Part shown: positions 8,440 to 44,497 of the stretch, piece after piece
How positions within the stretch are numbered: the first letter of the stretch is position 1
How the letters are laid out: every line of letters begins with the position of its first letter
Assembly: GCF_000425285.1 (NCBI RefSeq)
Contig: NZ_AUDD01000022.1
Location: 1 to 49,046 of the forward strand
DNA: 49,046 bases
Source of the DNA: Acidipropionibacterium jensenii DSM 20535
GTDB lineage: Bacteria > Actinomycetota > Actinomycetes > Propionibacteriales > Propionibacteriaceae
Direction of reading: 5' to 3'
Program-made: the position numbers and the translations under genes
The notes under the pieces: model-generated
What the model saw: only the letters and a program-made list of their open reading frames with translations
Database searches by the model: none
What the model was told of the DNA's origin: nothing

Positions 8440-9438
8440 TCAGCGCTTCGCAGGTGCCGATCGCAGAATGTCGAGCCCGAGCTCGCGCGACAGCAGTCGA
8501 GCCGCCAGGCCCGCGCGCACACTGTTGCCCTGGGCGTCCAGTAGCGGGGAGAAGGCACCGAATCCTCCCTTGCCCGGGGAGGACGCCGTGATCCCGCCTC
8601 CGATGCCGCTCTTGCCGGGGACCCCGACCTGGAGCATCCACTCCCCCGAGGTCTCGTAGAGACCGGCCACGCCCATCGCGACCAGGGCGACGCGGGTGGC
8701 CTCGGCACCGACCACCTGCTCACCGGTGAGCGGGTTCACCCCGCCGTCGGCCAGCGTGGCGCCCATCACGGCTAGGTCCAGGGCGGTGACCTCCAGACAG
8801 CACTGGTCGGTGTACAACTCCACCGCCTGCTGCGGATCGCCCCACAGTGCTCCCTTGGTCTTGAGCAGCAGGGCAAGCGAGCGGTTGCGGAGGTTCGTGG
8901 CACGCACCGCCTCGACGGTGTCGGCGTCCAGCCTGAGGTCGCGTCCGGCGAACCGGCACAGACCGTCGCGGACGAACTCCCAGCGCTTCTCGAAGCCGTC
9001 CCCCGGGACCATGCTCGTGGTGGCGATCGCTCCCGAGTTGACCATCGGATTGGTGCGACCTCTCGGTGCCCGGTCGACCGGTTCCATCGAGTTGAACGGC
9101 AGCCCGGTGGCATTCATGCCCACCAGATCGTCGATCGCCTGGGCCCCGATCGCCTCGCAGACCAGGGCCAGCACGAAGGGCTTCGAGACGCTCATGATGA
9201 GGAACGGGACCTGCGAGTCGCCGGCCTCGAAGGTGGATCCCCCGACGTCGGCCAGGGCCAGACCGAAGTGACTGCGGTCCGCCCCGGCCAGTGCCGGGTA
9301 GACCGTCGAGAGCTCCCCCTCGCCGACCCCGGCCAACTCGTCGTGGGCCCGCCGGAGGAGGTCCTCGATCCGGGCATCGGCCGGCAGCGACCCGGTCGAG
9401 ACATAGGGCGTGCTGCCCTTGGACAGTGGGGTGCGCAT
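8440..9438 (-). CDS. glsA: Glutaminase (GlsA family)
   Basis: About 332 residues of the serine-beta-lactamase-like glutaminase family, converting glutamine to glutamate and ammonia in the cytoplasm; in many bacteria it supports acid resistance. Seen: the catalytic SxxK motif SVSK (residues 83-86), the NPMVNSGAIA motif, ELYTDQCCLEVTALDLAVMGATLADGGVNPLTGE, and GKSGIGGGI near the C-terminus; all are family signatures. Of two in-frame ATGs, 9438 has AAGGA seven bases upstream while 9456 has none, so the shorter form is preferred. A 24-bp perfect palindrome sits 36 bp upstream. The gene stands between pepD and the metal-export operon on the same strand. Confidence 0.94.
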   Translation of the reverse strand: MRTPLSKGSTPYVSTGSLPADARIEDLLRRAHDELAGVGEGELSTVYPALAGADRSHFGLALADVGGSTFEAGDSQVPFLIMSVSKPFVLALVCEAIGAQAIDDLVGMNATGLPFNSMEPVDRAPRGRTNPMVNSGAIATTSMVPGDGFEKRWEFVRDGLCRFAGRDLRLDADTVEAVRATNLRNRSLALLLKTKGALWGDPQQAVELYTDQCCLEVTALDLAVMGATLADGGVNPLTGEQVVGAEATRVALVAMGVAGLYETSGEWMLQVGVPGKSGIGGGITASSPGKGGFGAFSPLLDAQGNSVRAGLAARLLSRELGLDILRSAPAKR

Positions 9439-9473
9439 GATGGCTTCCTTCTCCATCTGGAGGGTGGACGCCG

Positions 9474-9497
9474 CCGGGTGTCGAGCTCGACACCCGG
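9474..9497. promoter_or_regulatory. 24-bp perfect palindrome upstream of glsA
   Basis: The half site CCGGGTGTCGAG is followed immediately by its exact reverse complement, with no loop. Lack of a loop or T-tract favours a protein-binding operator for glsA over a terminator for pepD, which ends 70 bp upstream. Function is inferred. Confidence 0.55.
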
Positions 9498-9566
9498 TGG
9501 TGTCGCAGCAGGGTCACAGCAGGACGGCACCCGCCGAGCTCGGGCCTCTGCGGCCGGTCGCGGCCC

Positions 9567-11228
9567 TCAGTTGTCGGACCGGGAGAACCGGTTGGTCATG
9601 AGATTGCTGGAGATCTCCAGAACCTTCCCCAGCAGCTCGTCGGTCCGGGTCCTCACGAGCTCGGCGATCGCCTCGTTGGCGGCCTCCAGAAGCTGGCGGA
9701 TCTCGGTCTCGCCGGCCACCCTCCCGGCCGCAGCCGAAACCCCAGTACCGGCGTCCCCACCACTGGATCCGGCCAGCCCGGCATCGGTCACCCGCAGGTT
9801 CGCGTGCCCGGCGGCCAGGGTCGTCTCCTGATAGCGCTCGATCTCGGGGATGATCTCGTTGAAGTGGCCATCGGCCAGCGCCGCGATAATCCGTTGGGCC
9901 CAGTAGAGGCTGTCGGTACTGACCCGTCCGGTGGTGTTGGCCAGGTAGTCCGGGGTCCTTTCGACATTGGTGTACAGCGGCACCAGGGTGTTGAACGGGT
10001 TCGAGGCGAATGCCACCCACTGGATCGCCCGGTACTCCTGCGGCCGGTAAGGACGCACCTGGAGGATCGACAGCTCGGAGTGACGGTTGATCCCGATCGG
10101 TCGAAGCAGGTGCCTCTGGGCCTCCGACCCCAGCGCCGAGTAGGGGTCGAATGGCGTCCCCTGGTAGTGCAGGCTCAGCACATACTTGACGTCCTCGAGG
10201 GTGAGCTTGCGCTCGGGAGTCCGTCCCCAGGCGATGTCATCGCTGGCCGGGGTGTGGCGCGCCGAGAGTCCGTCCCAGTCGTCATGGGGATTGAGGTGGC
10301 GCTGCATGATCCAGGCCCGTGGCGAGTTGTAGACATGGTCGGCATCGGTGTGCGAGCCGAAGGCCTCCCGAGGATTGAAGACGCCACCGGGCAGGGCGCC
10401 CCTCGACCCACCGGCTGGCCCGCCGGCCACGCCACCCTCGGACCCATGCTCCGGAAGGCTGATCGACCGGGCTGCCAGGAACCCGCTCGGCCCCGCTCCG
10501 GGCAGCCGCAGATCCAGGAAGTTCTCGGCCATGAACTCCCGCAGATCGGAGCTGGCCAGGTACTCGCGAGCCGGCCCGAAGGCGTCGTCCAGATCGAAGG
10601 AGTCGATCCCCAGCTGATTGGGCATCGTGACGTACCAGTCGTCGGGCACCCGACGGGCGATCCAGTGGTGACCGCCGACAGTCTCCAGCCACCAGATCTC
10701 GTCGGAGTCACTGAAGGCGACGCCGTTCATCTCATATGTGCCGTACTGCTCCAGCAGGGCGCCGAGTCTCAGCACCCCCTCGCGGGCAGTGCGGATGTAC
10801 GGCAGCACCAGGGTGAGGAAGTCCTCCTCGCCGATCCCACCGGCCACTGCGGCGCGATAGCCCTCGGACCCCGCAGCCCCCGTCGCCGGCTGATACTCAA
10901 CCATCGGATCGGCGCCGAGCACCCGCTCATTGCTGGTGAGGGTCTCGGTGGCGCTCATCGCGACATTGGCGGCGTTGATGCCGGCCTCTCCCCACACCCC
11001 CTCGTCGGGGATGGCGTTCGGCGCGGCGGTGTAGCGCAGCGGGTCGTCGGGGAGGTCGATGGTGAGGTGCGCAAGGACGCTGGTGTAGCTGCGGGGCTGG
11101 TCGGCGGGGGAGACGATGACGATCCGCTTGGGATTCCACTCCCCGTTGGCCGAGTCCTCGTTGCGCGCCACGATCGGCGACCCGTCGTAGCTTGCGTCCC
11201 TACCCACCAGAATCGTTGTGCAGCCCAC
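9567..11228 (-). CDS. C69-family dipeptidase (PepD-like)
   Basis: About 553 residues. The N-terminal MGCTTILVGRDASYDGSPIVARNEDS is the C69 Ntn-hydrolase start, with the Cys (residue 3) as predicted nucleophile; the body holds the TMPNQLGIDSFDLDD and FGSHTDADHVYNSPRAW segments of the family. It should cleave dipeptides in the cytoplasm. The frame stays open to a TTG at 11267, but that codon lies inside a TAGGCT -10 box (11267-11272). The GTG at 11228 is preceded by AGAGAGG and brings the Cys next to the initiator, so it is the better start. Residues 480-510 form a Gly/Ala/Ser-rich linker before a short helical C-terminus. Confidence 0.9.
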   Translation of the reverse strand: MGCTTILVGRDASYDGSPIVARNEDSANGEWNPKRIVIVSPADQPRSYTSVLAHLTIDLPDDPLRYTAAPNAIPDEGVWGEAGINAANVAMSATETLTSNERVLGADPMVEYQPATGAAGSEGYRAAVAGGIGEEDFLTLVLPYIRTAREGVLRLGALLEQYGTYEMNGVAFSDSDEIWWLETVGGHHWIARRVPDDWYVTMPNQLGIDSFDLDDAFGPAREYLASSDLREFMAENFLDLRLPGAGPSGFLAARSISLPEHGSEGGVAGGPAGGSRGALPGGVFNPREAFGSHTDADHVYNSPRAWIMQRHLNPHDDWDGLSARHTPASDDIAWGRTPERKLTLEDVKYVLSLHYQGTPFDPYSALGSEAQRHLLRPIGINRHSELSILQVRPYRPQEYRAIQWVAFASNPFNTLVPLYTNVERTPDYLANTTGRVSTDSLYWAQRIIAALADGHFNEIIPEIERYQETTLAAGHANLRVTDAGLAGSSGGDAGTGVSAAAGRVAGETEIRQLLEAANEAIAELVRTRTDELLGKVLEISSNLMTNRFSRSDN

Positions 11229-24768: not shown

Positions 24769-26387
24769 CGCAGACCGTCCATCCGCAGTGCCTGCTCGAA
24801 GAACTCGAGCTCATGGCGGCACGAGATGAGGAAGGCACGAGCGGCCGCCGACCTCTGGGCGGGCGCGGCCACCTCCATCGCCTTCTCGACGTGACCCAGC
24901 GCGGTGGCGGTGGCCGTGATGAAGGCGTCGTCGCGATAGGTCGCCAGCCATCCGGCGTAGCGGTGGTCGTCGGGGACCTGCGGGAGGGAGGCGCCGACCT
25001 GGGCGTAGAGCCAGTAGCAGGGCAGCACCGCGGCGGCGCCGACCGGATGGTCGTCCCCGAGTGCCCTGGCCATCAGGAAGTCGACATAAGCCCTTGTCAC
25101 CGGGCTGGGAGCGGGCGGCCGGGAGTCGGCACCGAGCCAGTTGCGGTGCAGTTCGGCCTCGACGACCTGGCTGGCGGTGGCTCCGGCGGCCCAGTCCGCG
25201 GCCTCGGCGGGATCGGTGGAGGAGGCGGCGACCGCCGCCAGAGCACGGGGGTACTCGGCCAGGTAGCAGGCGTCCTGGCCGAGGTAGAAGGAGAAGATGC
25301 CGGGCGACAGGGTGCCGTCGACCAGGGCGGTGACCAAGTCGCAGTCGGCGATCCGGCGGGCCAGGTCCGACCCGGCGCGCCACAGGGCCGCGGTCCATGG
25401 GCCGGCGGCGGGTACTGCTGAGGCTGGGACCTCGGGTGCGGTCGGCGTCGCGGCTGCGGGAGCGTCGGTCGTCGGGTCGAGCTGGTCGGGGGTCACCAGG
25501 GTGGCGGGGACGTCGTCCGCCGTCAGCCAGGCGACGGGCTGCCCGGCGGCCGCGAGCCGGCGCATTCGGTGGCTGTGGTCGACCGGACCGTGGCCGTGGC
25601 CCACGACGAGTTCGCTGCCGTGGAGGATCGCCTCGTGGAGCCATTCAGTGGTCCAGACGAGGGCTGTGGCGGGGTCGTCTCCGGCGGCGAGCCGGGTGGC
25701 CAGGGCCGAGGACAGCGAGCATCCGGTGCCGTGGGTGCTGGTGGTGTCGACCCGGATGCAGGGCACCTCTGCGAGGGGGCCTTCGGGGCCGACCCACAGG
25801 TTGGTGGCCAGCCGGGAGTCCAGGTGTCCGGTCTTGACGATCACCGCGACACCGGTGTCGGCGGCCCACGCCCGGGCCTGGGCGACCGCGGCGTCCTGGT
25901 CGGGAGCGGGGTCGTCGTCGACCAGCACGGCGAGCTCTGGGATGTTGGGGGTGATGACGGTGGCCCGCCGGCAGAACCGGCTCATCGCGGCCTCGGCGTC
26001 GGGCTCCAGGAGGCGGTCGCCGCTGGTGGCGACCATCACCGGGTCGACGACGAGGACCGGCGGCTGATGGACGTCGAGCCACTGCTCCACCGTCTCGATG
26101 ATGGCGGCGGTGCCGAGCATCCCGGTCTTGACGCCGTCGACCACGACGTCGTCCCCCACGGCCTTGAGCTGTGCGGCGAGGAAGTCGGTGGGCGGGGTGT
26201 GGATGGCGCGCACACCGGTGGTGTTCTGGGCGACCAGGCAGGTGACCACGGTCATGCCGTAGCCGCCGGCCGCCGTGATCGACTTCATGTCGGCAGCTGT
26301 GCCGGCTCCCCCGGAGGGATCGGTTCCGGCGATGGAGAGCACCCGTGGCAGGGCGCCGGGAACCGATGGGTGGATGGTGGAGGTCAC
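24765..26387 (-). CDS. thiD: ThiD-TenA bifunctional fusion (HMP-P kinase / thiaminase II)
   Basis: A 540-residue two-domain protein. The N-terminal ThiD domain (1-265) has VLSIAGTDPSGGAGTAADMKSITAAGGYGMTVVTCLVAQNT, VDPVMVATSGDRLL and the anion-hole motif TTSTHGTGCSLSSALA; it phosphorylates HMP and HMP-P. An Ala/Pro/Thr linker (~300-325) leads to a C-terminal TenA domain (~330-540) with LGQDACYLAEYPRALA, VLPCYWLYAQVG (catalytic Cys in PCYW) and ISCRHELEFFEQAL, which recovers HMP from degraded thiamine by hydrolysis. Both act in pyrimidine salvage, so the fusion is logical. The start is a GTG at 26387, immediately after the riboswitch. First gene of a four-gene operon. Confidence 0.95.
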   Translation of the reverse strand: MTSTIHPSVPGALPRVLSIAGTDPSGGAGTAADMKSITAAGGYGMTVVTCLVAQNTTGVRAIHTPPTDFLAAQLKAVGDDVVVDGVKTGMLGTAAIIETVEQWLDVHQPPVLVVDPVMVATSGDRLLEPDAEAAMSRFCRRATVITPNIPELAVLVDDDPAPDQDAAVAQARAWAADTGVAVIVKTGHLDSRLATNLWVGPEGPLAEVPCIRVDTTSTHGTGCSLSSALATRLAAGDDPATALVWTTEWLHEAILHGSELVVGHGHGPVDHSHRMRRLAAAGQPVAWLTADDVPATLVTPDQLDPTTDAPAAATPTAPEVPASAVPAAGPWTAALWRAGSDLARRIADCDLVTALVDGTLSPGIFSFYLGQDACYLAEYPRALAAVAASSTDPAEAADWAAGATASQVVEAELHRNWLGADSRPPAPSPVTRAYVDFLMARALGDDHPVGAAAVLPCYWLYAQVGASLPQVPDDHRYAGWLATYRDDAFITATATALGHVEKAMEVAAPAQRSAAARAFLISCRHELEFFEQALRMDGLR

Positions 26388-26392
26388 TGGGA

Positions 26393-26461
26393 CATCCCTT
26401 CGCTAGTCCGAACTAGATCAGGTTCCACGGGTGTGATCTCAGCGCAGCGGCGCACCCCGTG
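26393..26461 (-). promoter_or_regulatory. TPP riboswitch (THI element)
   Basis: On the minus strand the conserved blocks appear in order: ACGGGGTGC, CTGAGATCACACCCGT, GAACCTGATC and GACTAGCGAAGGGATG. These are the diagnostic parts of the thiamine pyrophosphate aptamer. The only purine-rich ribosome binding sequence for the GTG at 26387, GAAGGGA, is part of the aptamer 3' strand, so control of translation initiation is likely (inference), although premature termination is not excluded. Confidence 0.93.
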
Positions 26462-26471
26462 TCCACGCAAC

Positions 26472-33251: not shown

Positions 33252-34271
33252 TCAGGCGAGGGGCCGCGACGTTGTCTCCGGGGACTGCGGCGGTTGGGGA
33301 TGGGGGACCGTCCCGGAGCCGAGTTGCGGCGTCCCGTCCGGGAGAATCGGCGTCGCCCCCGGAGGTACCGGCCTCTCCTCCGGCAGCACCGACGTCGTCC
33401 TCGACGTCTCCCCCTCGTTGGCAGCCCTGGCGCGACCGTGGAGTCGACCGTTGACCTGGGCGATGAACAGCGCCATCACGGGAATCAGGTAGACCCACCA
33501 GGCGATGGTCTGGGCGAGGGTCGGGGCGAGATTGACCTGGAACATCGCCACCGCCACGACGTAGAGCCAGTAGACCGGTGACGACGCGGCCGGCAGCCAG
33601 GCCGACAGGTCCCAGGCGTGGGTCATGATCCCGGGCAGGACGCCGGCCTCCTGAAGGTCGCCGATCCCGTAGGAGACGATGCCGGCCGCCACCAGGATGA
33701 GGAATCCGCCGGTGAGGGCGAAGAAGGCGCGCATGTTGATCCGCACCGCACCCCGGTAGACCAGCCAGCCGAGCAGGACGGCGGCGGCCAGGCCGGTCAC
33801 CACCCCGGCGGTGGTGGCAACCGTGTTGGTCTGGACCGAGGACTTCACCGTCGCCCAGATGAACAGGGCGGTCTCGACCCCCTCCCGGCCGACCGCCAGG
33901 ATGGCGATCCACACCACTCCCCAGCCGGAGCCGTGGCTGCTGAGCGAGCGGGTGAGGTCGGACTCGATGTCGCCCTTGAGCTGCCGGGAGTTCTCCCCCA
34001 TCCAGAACACCATCCAGGTGACCATCGCGACCGCGACCAGGGACAGGACGCCGCCGATGATCTCCTGGGCCTGGAAGGTGAGGGTCTTGGGACCCCAGGT
34101 GAGGACGGCGCCGATGGCCAGCGGGACGAGGGCGGCCAGTCCGACGCCGAGCCACAGTTTGCCGATGAGGTCGCGGCGGTCGGCCTTGACCAGGTAGGCG
34201 TAGATGATGCCGACGACCAGGGACGCCTCGAACCCCTCACGGAGGGCGATGAGAAGGTTGGCGACGAACAT
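33252..34271 (-). CDS. efeU: EfeU, FTR1-family ferrous iron permease
   Basis: A 339-residue membrane protein with seven predicted TM helices. The two iron-binding REGxE motifs are REGFE (residues 11-15) and REGVE (about 128-132) in AVGREGVETALFIW. FTR1/EfeU moves iron across the membrane after oxidation by EfeB. The last ~65 residues are a Pro/Thr-rich cytoplasmic tail (PVPPGATPILPDGTPQLGSG) without recognisable domains. First gene of efeUOB, with the iron box 43 bp before its ATG. Confidence 0.95.
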   Translation of the reverse strand: MFVANLLIALREGFEASLVVGIIYAYLVKADRRDLIGKLWLGVGLAALVPLAIGAVLTWGPKTLTFQAQEIIGGVLSLVAVAMVTWMVFWMGENSRQLKGDIESDLTRSLSSHGSGWGVVWIAILAVGREGVETALFIWATVKSSVQTNTVATTAGVVTGLAAAVLLGWLVYRGAVRINMRAFFALTGGFLILVAAGIVSYGIGDLQEAGVLPGIMTHAWDLSAWLPAASSPVYWLYVVAVAMFQVNLAPTLAQTIAWWVYLIPVMALFIAQVNGRLHGRARAANEGETSRTTSVLPEERPVPPGATPILPDGTPQLGSGTVPHPQPPQSPETTSRPLA

Positions 34272-34313
34272 GGGGGCTCCGTCTCTGTCCCGATCCGGAC
34301 TTACCCGGATCTG

Positions 34314-34332
34314 TTAGGCAAGCCTCACCTAA
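34314..34332 (-). promoter_or_regulatory. DtxR/IdeR iron box of efeUOB
   Basis: TTAGGCAAGCCTCACCTAA agrees with the palindromic consensus TTAGGTTAGCCTAACCTAA at 16 of 19 positions and lies 43 bp upstream of efeU. Iron-bound repressor should silence the operon. Confidence 0.85.
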
Positions 34333-34588
34333 TCATCCCGGCGGGACGTCGTCAACCCCTCCGACAAGGGGATTTCTTGATGTGAGATGCGACATGGTCG
34401 GCTGTCGAGGGGTGGGGTGCCTGCTTTGGAGCCGAGGGAGGTGCCTGTTGCGGACCGGGGGTGCCTGCTGCGGGCGGAGGCGGCCGCCAGGCACACCCAC
34501 CCTCTGGCGCAGGTGACCCCATGCGCCCCGTTCCGACCCTCTGGCGCAGGCCAACCCCATCCACGACACGGCCGCCCCACCTCCAGCC

Positions 34589-34790
34589 ACGGATGCAGGC
34601 AAAAGGCACGGATGCAGCGGAGCTCCACTGCATCTGTGACATTTCCCTGCATCTGTCGGAAGAAGGGGTCATTTCCCTGCATCCGTCAGCCCCAGCACGA
34701 CACTTTCCCTGCATCCGTCAAGACCGAGGCATGTTTCCCTGCATCTGTCGACACCGGAAGACCGCCCGGGAGCCATTCGGCTGCATCTGT
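34589..34790. repeat. Iteron-like array of CTGCATCYGT
   Basis: Eight copies: two inverted (34589-34598, 34608-34617, spaced 19) and six direct (34628, 34647, 34677, 34709, 34739, 34781). Four of the direct copies share the longer core TTTCCCTGCATCYGTC at 30-, 32- and 30-bp intervals, close to three DNA turns. Function unknown; protein binding is the simplest reading. Confidence 0.8.
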
Positions 34791-35096: not shown

Positions 35097-35477
35097 TCAG
35101 TGGCGCGGGGGTCCTGGGATGAGGATCTCCCCGCCCTGGCGCCAAGCCCTCAGCCCACCGGTGAGGAAGTCGGCGTCATAGCCCTTGTCACGGATCGCCT
35201 GGACCAGATGACCGGAACGAAAACCGGTGTCGCACACCAGCACGAAATGGGGATCGGGCTCGGCCAGCGGATCGTCGCCGTAGACCGCGGTGAACGGATC
35301 GTCGACCAGCTCCTTGGCCTCCACCAGATGAGCACCTGGCGCATGCCCCGCCTCGTACTCCAGCAGGGTCCGCACATCGACGAGGACCCCTCCGTTCGCG
35401 AGCACGGTGAGGGCGGCCGGCAGGTCGATCCCCCCGGTCGGCATGCCTCGGTTGGCGAGGAAGTTCCGCAGTCCCAT
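35097..35477 (-). CDS. Single-domain rhodanese-like protein
   Basis: About 126 residues. The active-site loop CDTGFRSG (Cys82) and the VLVDVRTLLEYEAGHAPGAHLVEAKEL segment identify a rhodanese fold, carrying sulfur on the Cys. A frame nine residues longer begins at 35504, but a TAGAAT -10 box (35490-35485) lies seven bases before the ATG at 35477, so the short form is probably leaderless and correct. No signal peptide; cytoplasmic. It is followed by the repeat tract. Sulfur acceptor unknown. Confidence 0.88.
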   Translation of the reverse strand: MGLRNFLANRGMPTGGIDLPAALTVLANGGVLVDVRTLLEYEAGHAPGAHLVEAKELVDDPFTAVYGDDPLAEPDPHFVLVCDTGFRSGHLVQAIRDKGYDADFLTGGLRAWRQGGEILIPGPPRH

Positions 35478-35569
35478 GGCGGTGATTCTAGGTGAGTGGG
35501 TCATGACGTTGTCGACGCCATGCCCCGGTGGCCGGCCTGCTGCTCCCCAGTCCTTCGGCGCTCGGCCTG

Positions 35570-44431: not shown

Positions 44432-44497
44432 CGACGGCATCCAAAACTGGCGGCGGCAGTGGTATTCCACCGCCGCCGCCAACTTTGGATGCCGTCG
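44432..44497. repeat. 66-bp near-perfect palindrome
   Basis: A 31-bp arm and its complement (three mismatches) flank a TATT loop. The left arm begins CGACGGCATCCAAA and contains TGGCGGCGGC; the right arm mirrors it. It sits 56 bp after the hypothetical gene and 99 bp before the flavoprotein start. It may be a terminator, or a dispersed REP-type element. Confidence 0.85.

Follow-up and report, generated by a model that had tools for sequence, protein, structure and literature searches.

The window analysed here is the whole stretch of 49,046 nucleotides from Acidipropionibacterium jensenii DSM 20535. Its genome is denoted G000, G000-G004 being the five Acidipropionibacterium genomes compared, and C1 and similar labels denote contigs. 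An 825-bp gap in the window, between minus-strand genes for an FTR1-family iron permease and a rhodanese-domain protein, contains eight exact copies of the 10-bp motif CTGCATCYGT within 202 bp. Shuffling gives an expectation of 0.27 copies for the entire window, and eight copies were reached by none of 100 shuffles. The initial annotation had described these eight copies, two inverted and six direct, as well as four longer TTTCCCTGCATCYGTC units with spacings of 30, 32 and 30 bp and a 19-bp spacing shared by the first inverted and the first direct pair. All of this holds, the long units starting at 34642, 34672, 34704 and 34734. Two further features lie beyond that description: the inner four motif copies form one near-perfect palindrome, and the motif is dispersed throughout the genome. 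The features of the window are:

33252..34271, minus strand: left neighbour, FTR1-family iron permease (EfeU-like; FTR1 match, 2.3e-54)
34589..34656, no strand: type-A palindrome core, with motifs at 34589(-), 34608(-), 34628(+) and 34647(+), spaced 19/20/19
34677..34790, plus strand: one-sided arm extension, with four outward-pointing motifs at 34677, 34709, 34739 and 34781
35097..35504, minus strand: right neighbour, rhodanese-domain protein (Rhodanese match, 6.5e-13)
44432..44497, no strand: second palindrome, type B (CGACGGCATCC...GGATGCCGTCG), between two plus-strand genes

The type-A palindrome is centred at 34622/34623, positions 34628-34656 being nearly the reverse complement of 34589-34617, and its core has a single-strand fold z-score of -5.7. 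Along the arm extension, the spacings counted from 34647 are 30, 32, 30 and 42 bp, and the spacers are unlike each other. The centre of the core lies ~0.35 kb upstream of the iron permease start, and the array lies 3' of the rhodanese gene. Just upstream of the permease start, a TTAGGCAAGCCTCACCTAATC sequence (~34310-34335) bears what we take to be a resemblance to a DtxR/IdeR iron box. In Acidipropionibacterium thoenii DSM 20276 (76% identity), the same two genes are separated by ~290 bp without such a motif. Searches of the array against Rfam and against plasmids and phages gave no match, nor did a search of the palindrome core against viral contigs. The sole Rfam match in the window is a TPP riboswitch at 26378-26469 on the minus strand (RF00059, 66 bits). 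The claim that no replication or partition gene lies near the array is roughly right; ssb, encoding SSB, is ~5 kb away. The type-B palindrome has 31-nt arms that are 90% complementary and a TATT loop, and is close in sequence to a palindrome at G002:C1:150550.

Across G000 there are 60 exact copies of CTGCATCYGT, compared with 6 for the reversed pattern, and most are present in similar clusters. The type-A palindromic core occurs at nine places. In eight of these, motifs (allowing up to 2 mismatches) are located at offsets of -34, -15, +5 and +24 from the centre; the ninth is without the motif at +24. Further motif copies that point outward from the core are present at eight of the nine places, often at 19 or 30-32 bp. 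The biggest type-A array, at L018 ~9060-9700 (G000:C35), has about nine similar units of 30-31 bp on one arm of its palindrome and several 30-bp units on the other. The type-A arrays show 24 distinct spacings (motif with up to 2 mismatches): 11 of 30-32 bp, 3 of 42-44 bp, and the remainder of 8, 14, 18, 19, 19, 23, 52, 54, 64 and 65 bp. The phasing at three helical turns proposed initially is thus upheld in part: the frequent 30-32-bp spacings and a Rayleigh test at 10.5 bp (p ~1e-4) speak for it, but the best-fitting period is 11.4 rather than 10.5, other spacings occur, and several arrays are plain tandem duplications of 19 or 31 bp.

Among 57 genomes, the 20-bp core with up to 2 mismatches is found in one genus alone, in G000 (9), G003 (1) and G004 (4). 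A wider pattern combined with reading of the sequences raises the counts to 10 in G004 and 2 in G003 and adds 2 in G002 and 1 in G001, four further genus matches (two in G003, two in G004) being left out of these counts. In the palindromes so found the arms vary and the pairing is mostly kept; one G004 copy (C11) is minus an outer arm. This wider, degenerate pattern matched 41 of the 57 genomes, and control counts indicate that its matches beyond the genus are mostly noise. The exact 20-bp core had no match in the GTDB-220 contigs, a set from which near records are possibly absent. Thus, conservation in sister species and clustering elsewhere, whose absence the initial annotation had named as grounds for abandoning its reading, both exist.

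The element can be described as a ~68-bp palindrome in which each half has the form N5-motif10-N9-motif10, giving four motifs spaced 19/20/19. A palindrome scan without a sequence model, run over the sampled parts of G000 and 398 kb from G002, revealed two more types in G000: type C, with the motif GGATCAACGC, and type D, with the motif CGAGCATCGT, both at the type-A offsets. In G000, the half-element coordinates have this layout in all five C and all nine D palindromes, and the same palindrome threshold yielded none in 120 kb of triplet-shuffled DNA. Position by position, the motifs of the gene-flanking A, C and D versions are 20-60% identical; thus, they are different motifs, for which some distant kinship is possible. 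Type D is represented in G000 by nine complete palindromes and one half (a lone half at G000:C11:76888, in L068, ends near the centre) and is absent from the four congeners. Type C is represented by five complete palindromes and one half in G000 and by six complete palindromes in G003, with none in the three other genomes of the genus. Consequently, three different motifs are represented in G000 by no fewer than 23 complete palindromes, and the species of the genus differ in which palindromes they have. The nine D copies match almost exactly over 68 bp, and outside this stretch their similarity falls off sharply. They have no convincing target-site duplication; one of at most 2 bp (CG) is seen in 2 of the 9, at the palindrome's own edge. 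Fold-back is strong in the four palindromes folded, with z-scores from -5.7 to -16.

A genome of another genus, G083, has a half-element with a different motif, in 43 copies at 19 places, together with the same gene bracket; this half-element is absent from five congeners. Of the 14 places examined, 13 have a spacing of exactly 19/22/19, and the remaining place has 17 on one of its sides. At 5 of these 14 places there are extra motif copies at 19 bp, which indicates that array growth from a palindrome is not peculiar to G000.

The gap between dnaK and pit holds a palindrome-gene-palindrome arrangement (the D unit) in G000, with ~1.9 kb between matched flanks. Without the D unit, the gap measures 0.17-0.36 kb in G002, G003 and G004; the region is rearranged in G001 and is therefore uninformative. 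The G004 gap contains an imperfect solo palindrome, classed as type E-like by eye from its likeness to the one in L152 and unlisted by the palindrome scan, and the G003 gap contains a different hairpin. In G000, G002 and G004, the gene units with A-like motifs have no flanks in common within the ~1 kb compared, and among 12 loci only the two E loci share flanks. The 3' end of a glpC-like gene carries an almost identical palindrome in G000 and G003 and, in G001, one of differing sequence in which the pairing is largely kept. L033 5720-5800 (A. thoenii) and L189 (the G003 dnaK-pit gap) have a further hairpin, whose arms resemble TGCGCAGATCACTCC...GGAGTGATCTGCGCA and whose loop is ~30 nt; in G000, type A or D elements occupy these two sites.

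When classified by the orientation of the neighbouring genes, 36 palindromes fall into 16 convergent, 18 tandem and 2 divergent gaps, compared with 21 convergent, 81 tandem and 26 divergent among 128 baseline gaps. This amounts to an excess of convergent gaps (p=0.0007) and a lack of divergent ones (p=0.03), orthologous and paired sites not being independent. The classes depend on a crude ORF picker, applied to 42 of 45 palindromes (two from G002 and one from G001 left out); six of the 42 were dropped before the test, three because they lay inside over-extended ORF calls and three because they were unclassifiable.

Palindromes of the same type also occur as pairs ~1.2-1.6 kb apart around one ORF, and the proteins encoded by the bracketed ORFs are relatives of one another. 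The bracketed ORFs and the broken homologues in the genus are:

G000, contig 10: ORF bracketed by type-D palindromes
G003, contig 1: ORF bracketed by type-C palindromes
G004, contig 8: ORF bracketed by A-like palindromes
G003:C4:133016-133908: broken homologue
G004:C10:64502-65393: broken homologue
G002:C1:201752-202503: broken homologue
G001:C1:3082336-3083231: broken homologue

In the five genomes, a palindrome of this architecture lies within 1.5 kb of 8 of the 10 intact homologues (on both sides of 5) and of 2 of the 4 broken ones (on both sides of 1), against a background of 12 in 189 Acidipropionibacterium windows of 3.9 kb (Fisher about 1e-7). The intact genes L145 and L151 have no such palindrome nearby. 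All 10 palindrome-bearing loci (8 intact, 2 broken) have an upstream palindrome; a downstream one is often lacking, the four one-sided loci having the upstream palindrome alone. The broken homologue on contig 4 of G003 is still located between two palindromes, of type G (GGACGAACG). In other genera of the family, 5 of 24 loci have a palindrome (2 on both sides) and 19 are without (p=0.03, with background windows taken from Acidipropionibacterium and not from those genera), and in other families none of 28 loci has one. Both sets consist of the best-scoring loci among the matches listed and are not a random sample; the 24 exclude L186, a truncated near-copy of L187, and the 28 are what is left of 30 after removal of L194 and L196 (same family, own genome). 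Five of the 28 other-family loci have shorter hairpins nearby, which look like ordinary terminators and were not counted. The protein family extends far beyond its association with palindromes, which are absent at 2 of 10 intact genus genes, 19 of 24 genes of other genera and 28 of 28 of other families.

The type-A gene of G000, at C1:138937-139827, has a type-A palindrome directly upstream of its start and is likely to be the partner gene of the array in the window, which is on another contig. None of the three homologues in G000 has a type-C palindrome nearby, yet type C persists in this genome. At L132, L135 and L026, which are flanked on both sides, a single ORF lies between the palindromes with no AbiEii partner, as judged from ORFs.

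The product of the bracketed gene consists of an N-terminal AbiEi-like winged helix (wHTH) and a conserved C-terminal domain. AbiEi_4 is matched by 21 of 32 family members at E <=0.1 (best 7.9e-10), the family consensus scores 34.4 bits against AbiEi (cut-off 25), and PADLOC reports an AbiEi match of 1e-11 for the D protein; those genus proteins that were scanned singly are below Pfam's cut-off for the AbiEi-like domain. Across the 32 sequences, the C-terminal domain contains invariant residues E198, D231, E242, D244, K248 and E266-K267, which form an E...D...ExDGxxK pattern. By eye, this domain may be like the PD-(D/E)XK/DUF559 nucleases, a weakly backed assignment; DUF559 is matched by 2 of the 32 members (best E 0.074) and not by the consensus. 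PDB searches gave no credible match for this domain, and NCBIfam has none for the gene family. The family is present in 110 of 147 Propionibacteriaceae genomes and in 140 of 196 Actinomycetes genomes sampled. Its relatives on plasmids amount to three records with <40% identity, and searches of phages and viral contigs returned none.

Similarity of motif and similarity of protein are correlated. For nine gene-palindrome pairs, with motifs read by eye and one of the proteins being an open N-terminal fragment from a broken gene (L153), the correlation is r=0.54 (p=0.0005) for the 140 aa after the wHTH and r=0.25 (p=0.04) for the 38-aa wHTH itself. With 12 pairs, in which two of the three added from other genera had padded motifs, the values are r=0.30 (p=0.026) and r=0.25 (p=0.042), respectively. 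Such a correlation would be expected of pairs that are inherited jointly, and does not by itself prove which part of the protein recognises the motif. Since the correlation with the motif is weaker for the wHTH than for the remainder of the protein, direct recognition of the motif by the wHTH stays putative.

The array is, with high confidence, an expanded member of a dispersed palindrome family that has a fixed four-motif geometry and a bracketed gene. The gene product probably binds, processes and spreads the palindromes, the whole constituting a selfish system. On the palindrome, paired dimers of the winged helix would bind the motif; the C-terminal domain would nick or cut the palindrome, perhaps as an extruded hairpin; and repair or fold-back copying would carry solo palindromes to intergenic 3' ends, in the manner proposed for the spread of REPs by RAYT transposases. 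Local duplication would produce the extra motif copies at 19 or 30-32 bp, which would hold the protein to one face of the DNA. The copy in the window would be non-autonomous, with G000:C1:138937-139827 as its partner gene. The chances are about even that a broader statement also applies, namely that this is a RAYT-independent second lineage of REP-type selfish palindromes. In this lineage, proteins with an AbiEi-like winged helix and a nuclease-like domain would spread their own 68-bp four-site palindromes, with a motif that diversifies freely, a geometry (19/20/19 or 19/22/19) that is fixed, and arrays that grow from the palindrome. These results suggest that actinobacteria harbour a very small selfish DNA of a kind so far undescribed. 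If this is true, a very common actinobacterial gene family acquires a role, REP-like genome parasites arose with an unrelated protein, and there are many natural protein-motif pairs of fixed geometry with which to study the diversification of DNA recognition. Arrays of this kind can pass for iterons or regulator arrays.

The palindromes might instead be dispersed operators, the sites of an AbiEi-like regulator, in which case the upstream palindrome would serve autoregulation and the array the tuning of efeU or the rhodanese gene. The promoters of AbiEi antitoxins contain paired inverted repeats to which these proteins bind (available part of PMC7319586), the array does lie upstream of the iron permease, and an upstream palindrome that is constant (10 of 10 loci, alone at the four one-sided ones) when the downstream one is often missing also fits an operator. 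However, convergent gaps hold 16 of 36 palindromes and divergent gaps 2 of 36 (21 and 26 of 128 at baseline), and a second palindrome is 3' of the gene at 5 of 10 intact loci. The presence of type D in 1 of 5 genus genomes and of the G083 type in 1 of 6 congeners would also be unusual for a conserved regulon, and the operator reading is rather unlikely. The preference of the palindromes for gene 3' ends would suit hairpin terminators or mRNA 3' stabilisers that are alike via gene conversion and have no dedicated protein, as would the strong fold-back (z-scores of -5.7 to -16 for the four palindromes folded) and the pairing kept at the glpC-like 3' end in G001 despite a sequence unlike those of G000 and G003. 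Yet a stem has no need of two motifs 19 bp apart in each arm, and both the one-sided motif arrays and a gene family bracketed by same-type palindromes are left unexplained by this improbable alternative.

Ordinary REP/REPIN elements, moved by a RAYT (a Y1 tyrosine transposase), have the same organisation, coevolution and species specificity in the available parts of PMC2817692 and PMC3116915. However, a search for Y1_Tnp (PF01797, E 0.001) found no match in G000, G001, G003 or G004 and one in G002, and Pfam gives AbiEi-like domains, not Y1_Tnp, in the flanked proteins. Such an origin is very improbable, and a RAYT is rejected for G000, which has no Y1 match, unless a Y1 gene lies in an assembly gap. 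The initial annotation had likened the array to binding arrays in origins, centromere-like or regulator sites. A protein-binding array is plausible, as a same-motif palindrome is directly upstream of an AbiEi-like winged-helix gene, but an origin or centromere-like function is unsupported: G000 has at least 23 palindromes with three motifs, located beside unrelated genes and seldom in divergent gaps. Replication iterons or a partition site, which a 10-bp motif repeated at near-helical spacing would fit, are hardly credible given many copies of several types at unrelated loci and an array without a plasmid or phage match; dispersal and the several types rule them out. Chance or plain tandem-repeat slippage without function would account for arrays that consist of near-identical 19-bp or 31-bp tandem units. 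This is exceedingly improbable, being contradicted by spacers in the window that differ while the motif is kept, and by a fixed geometry that recurs with other motifs.

The four-motif palindromes and their gene can be compared with several known systems. Like MITEs, the palindromes are short, non-autonomous, dispersed inverted repeats; unlike MITEs, the whole element is one palindrome instead of terminal repeats around unique sequence, and the nine D copies showed no target-site duplication. Short motifs at regular spacing are shared with iterons and parS-like sites, from which the palindromes differ in being dispersed and in having several types per genome; no Rep or Par gene was recognised beside the loci read (mostly from ORFs, with ten proteins by Pfam). 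The N-terminal AbiEi-like domain recalls the AbiE type IV toxin-antitoxin systems. However, L132, L135 and L026 have no adjacent AbiEii (DUF1814) gene as judged from ORFs alone, there is an extra conserved C-terminal domain, and the sites are dispersed over the chromosome. At these three loci the palindromes enclose a single gene, an arrangement unlike that of an AbiE toxin-antitoxin operon. As far as the available text goes, a paper on the A. jensenii genome reports 14 potential CRISPR arrays and makes no mention of such palindromes (PMC6920887), and neither does one on P. freudenreichii (PMC5644110). Judged by titles and abstract openings, a pairing of palindromes with an AbiEi-like gene is not apparent among the literature matches listed.

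The closest parallels are with REP/RAYT systems: intergenic palindromes, species-specific families, a gene flanked by two copies, and coevolution of motif and protein. RAYT genes are described as "always" flanked by two REPs (PMC2817692, available part), with coevolution and species specificity (PMC2817692, PMC3116915, available parts), whereas the non-RAYT gene here has palindromes on both sides at 5 of 10 intact genus loci. Copy number differs as well, each type here occupying ~5-19 places per genome compared with usually >100 for REPs (PMC2817692, available part). REP palindromes have a GTAG or CGTC tag at the foot (excerpt of PMC3733652), and the count table of a REP survey, in the part available, includes A. 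thoenii (PMC12306157). The palindrome here is ~68 bp, with a direct motif repeat at 19 bp in each arm, and the flanked protein has an AbiEi-like winged helix and another domain in place of Y1. Thus, with no Y1 match in G000 and a different architecture of both protein and palindrome, the system resembles REPs in its working and is not itself a member of the REP group.
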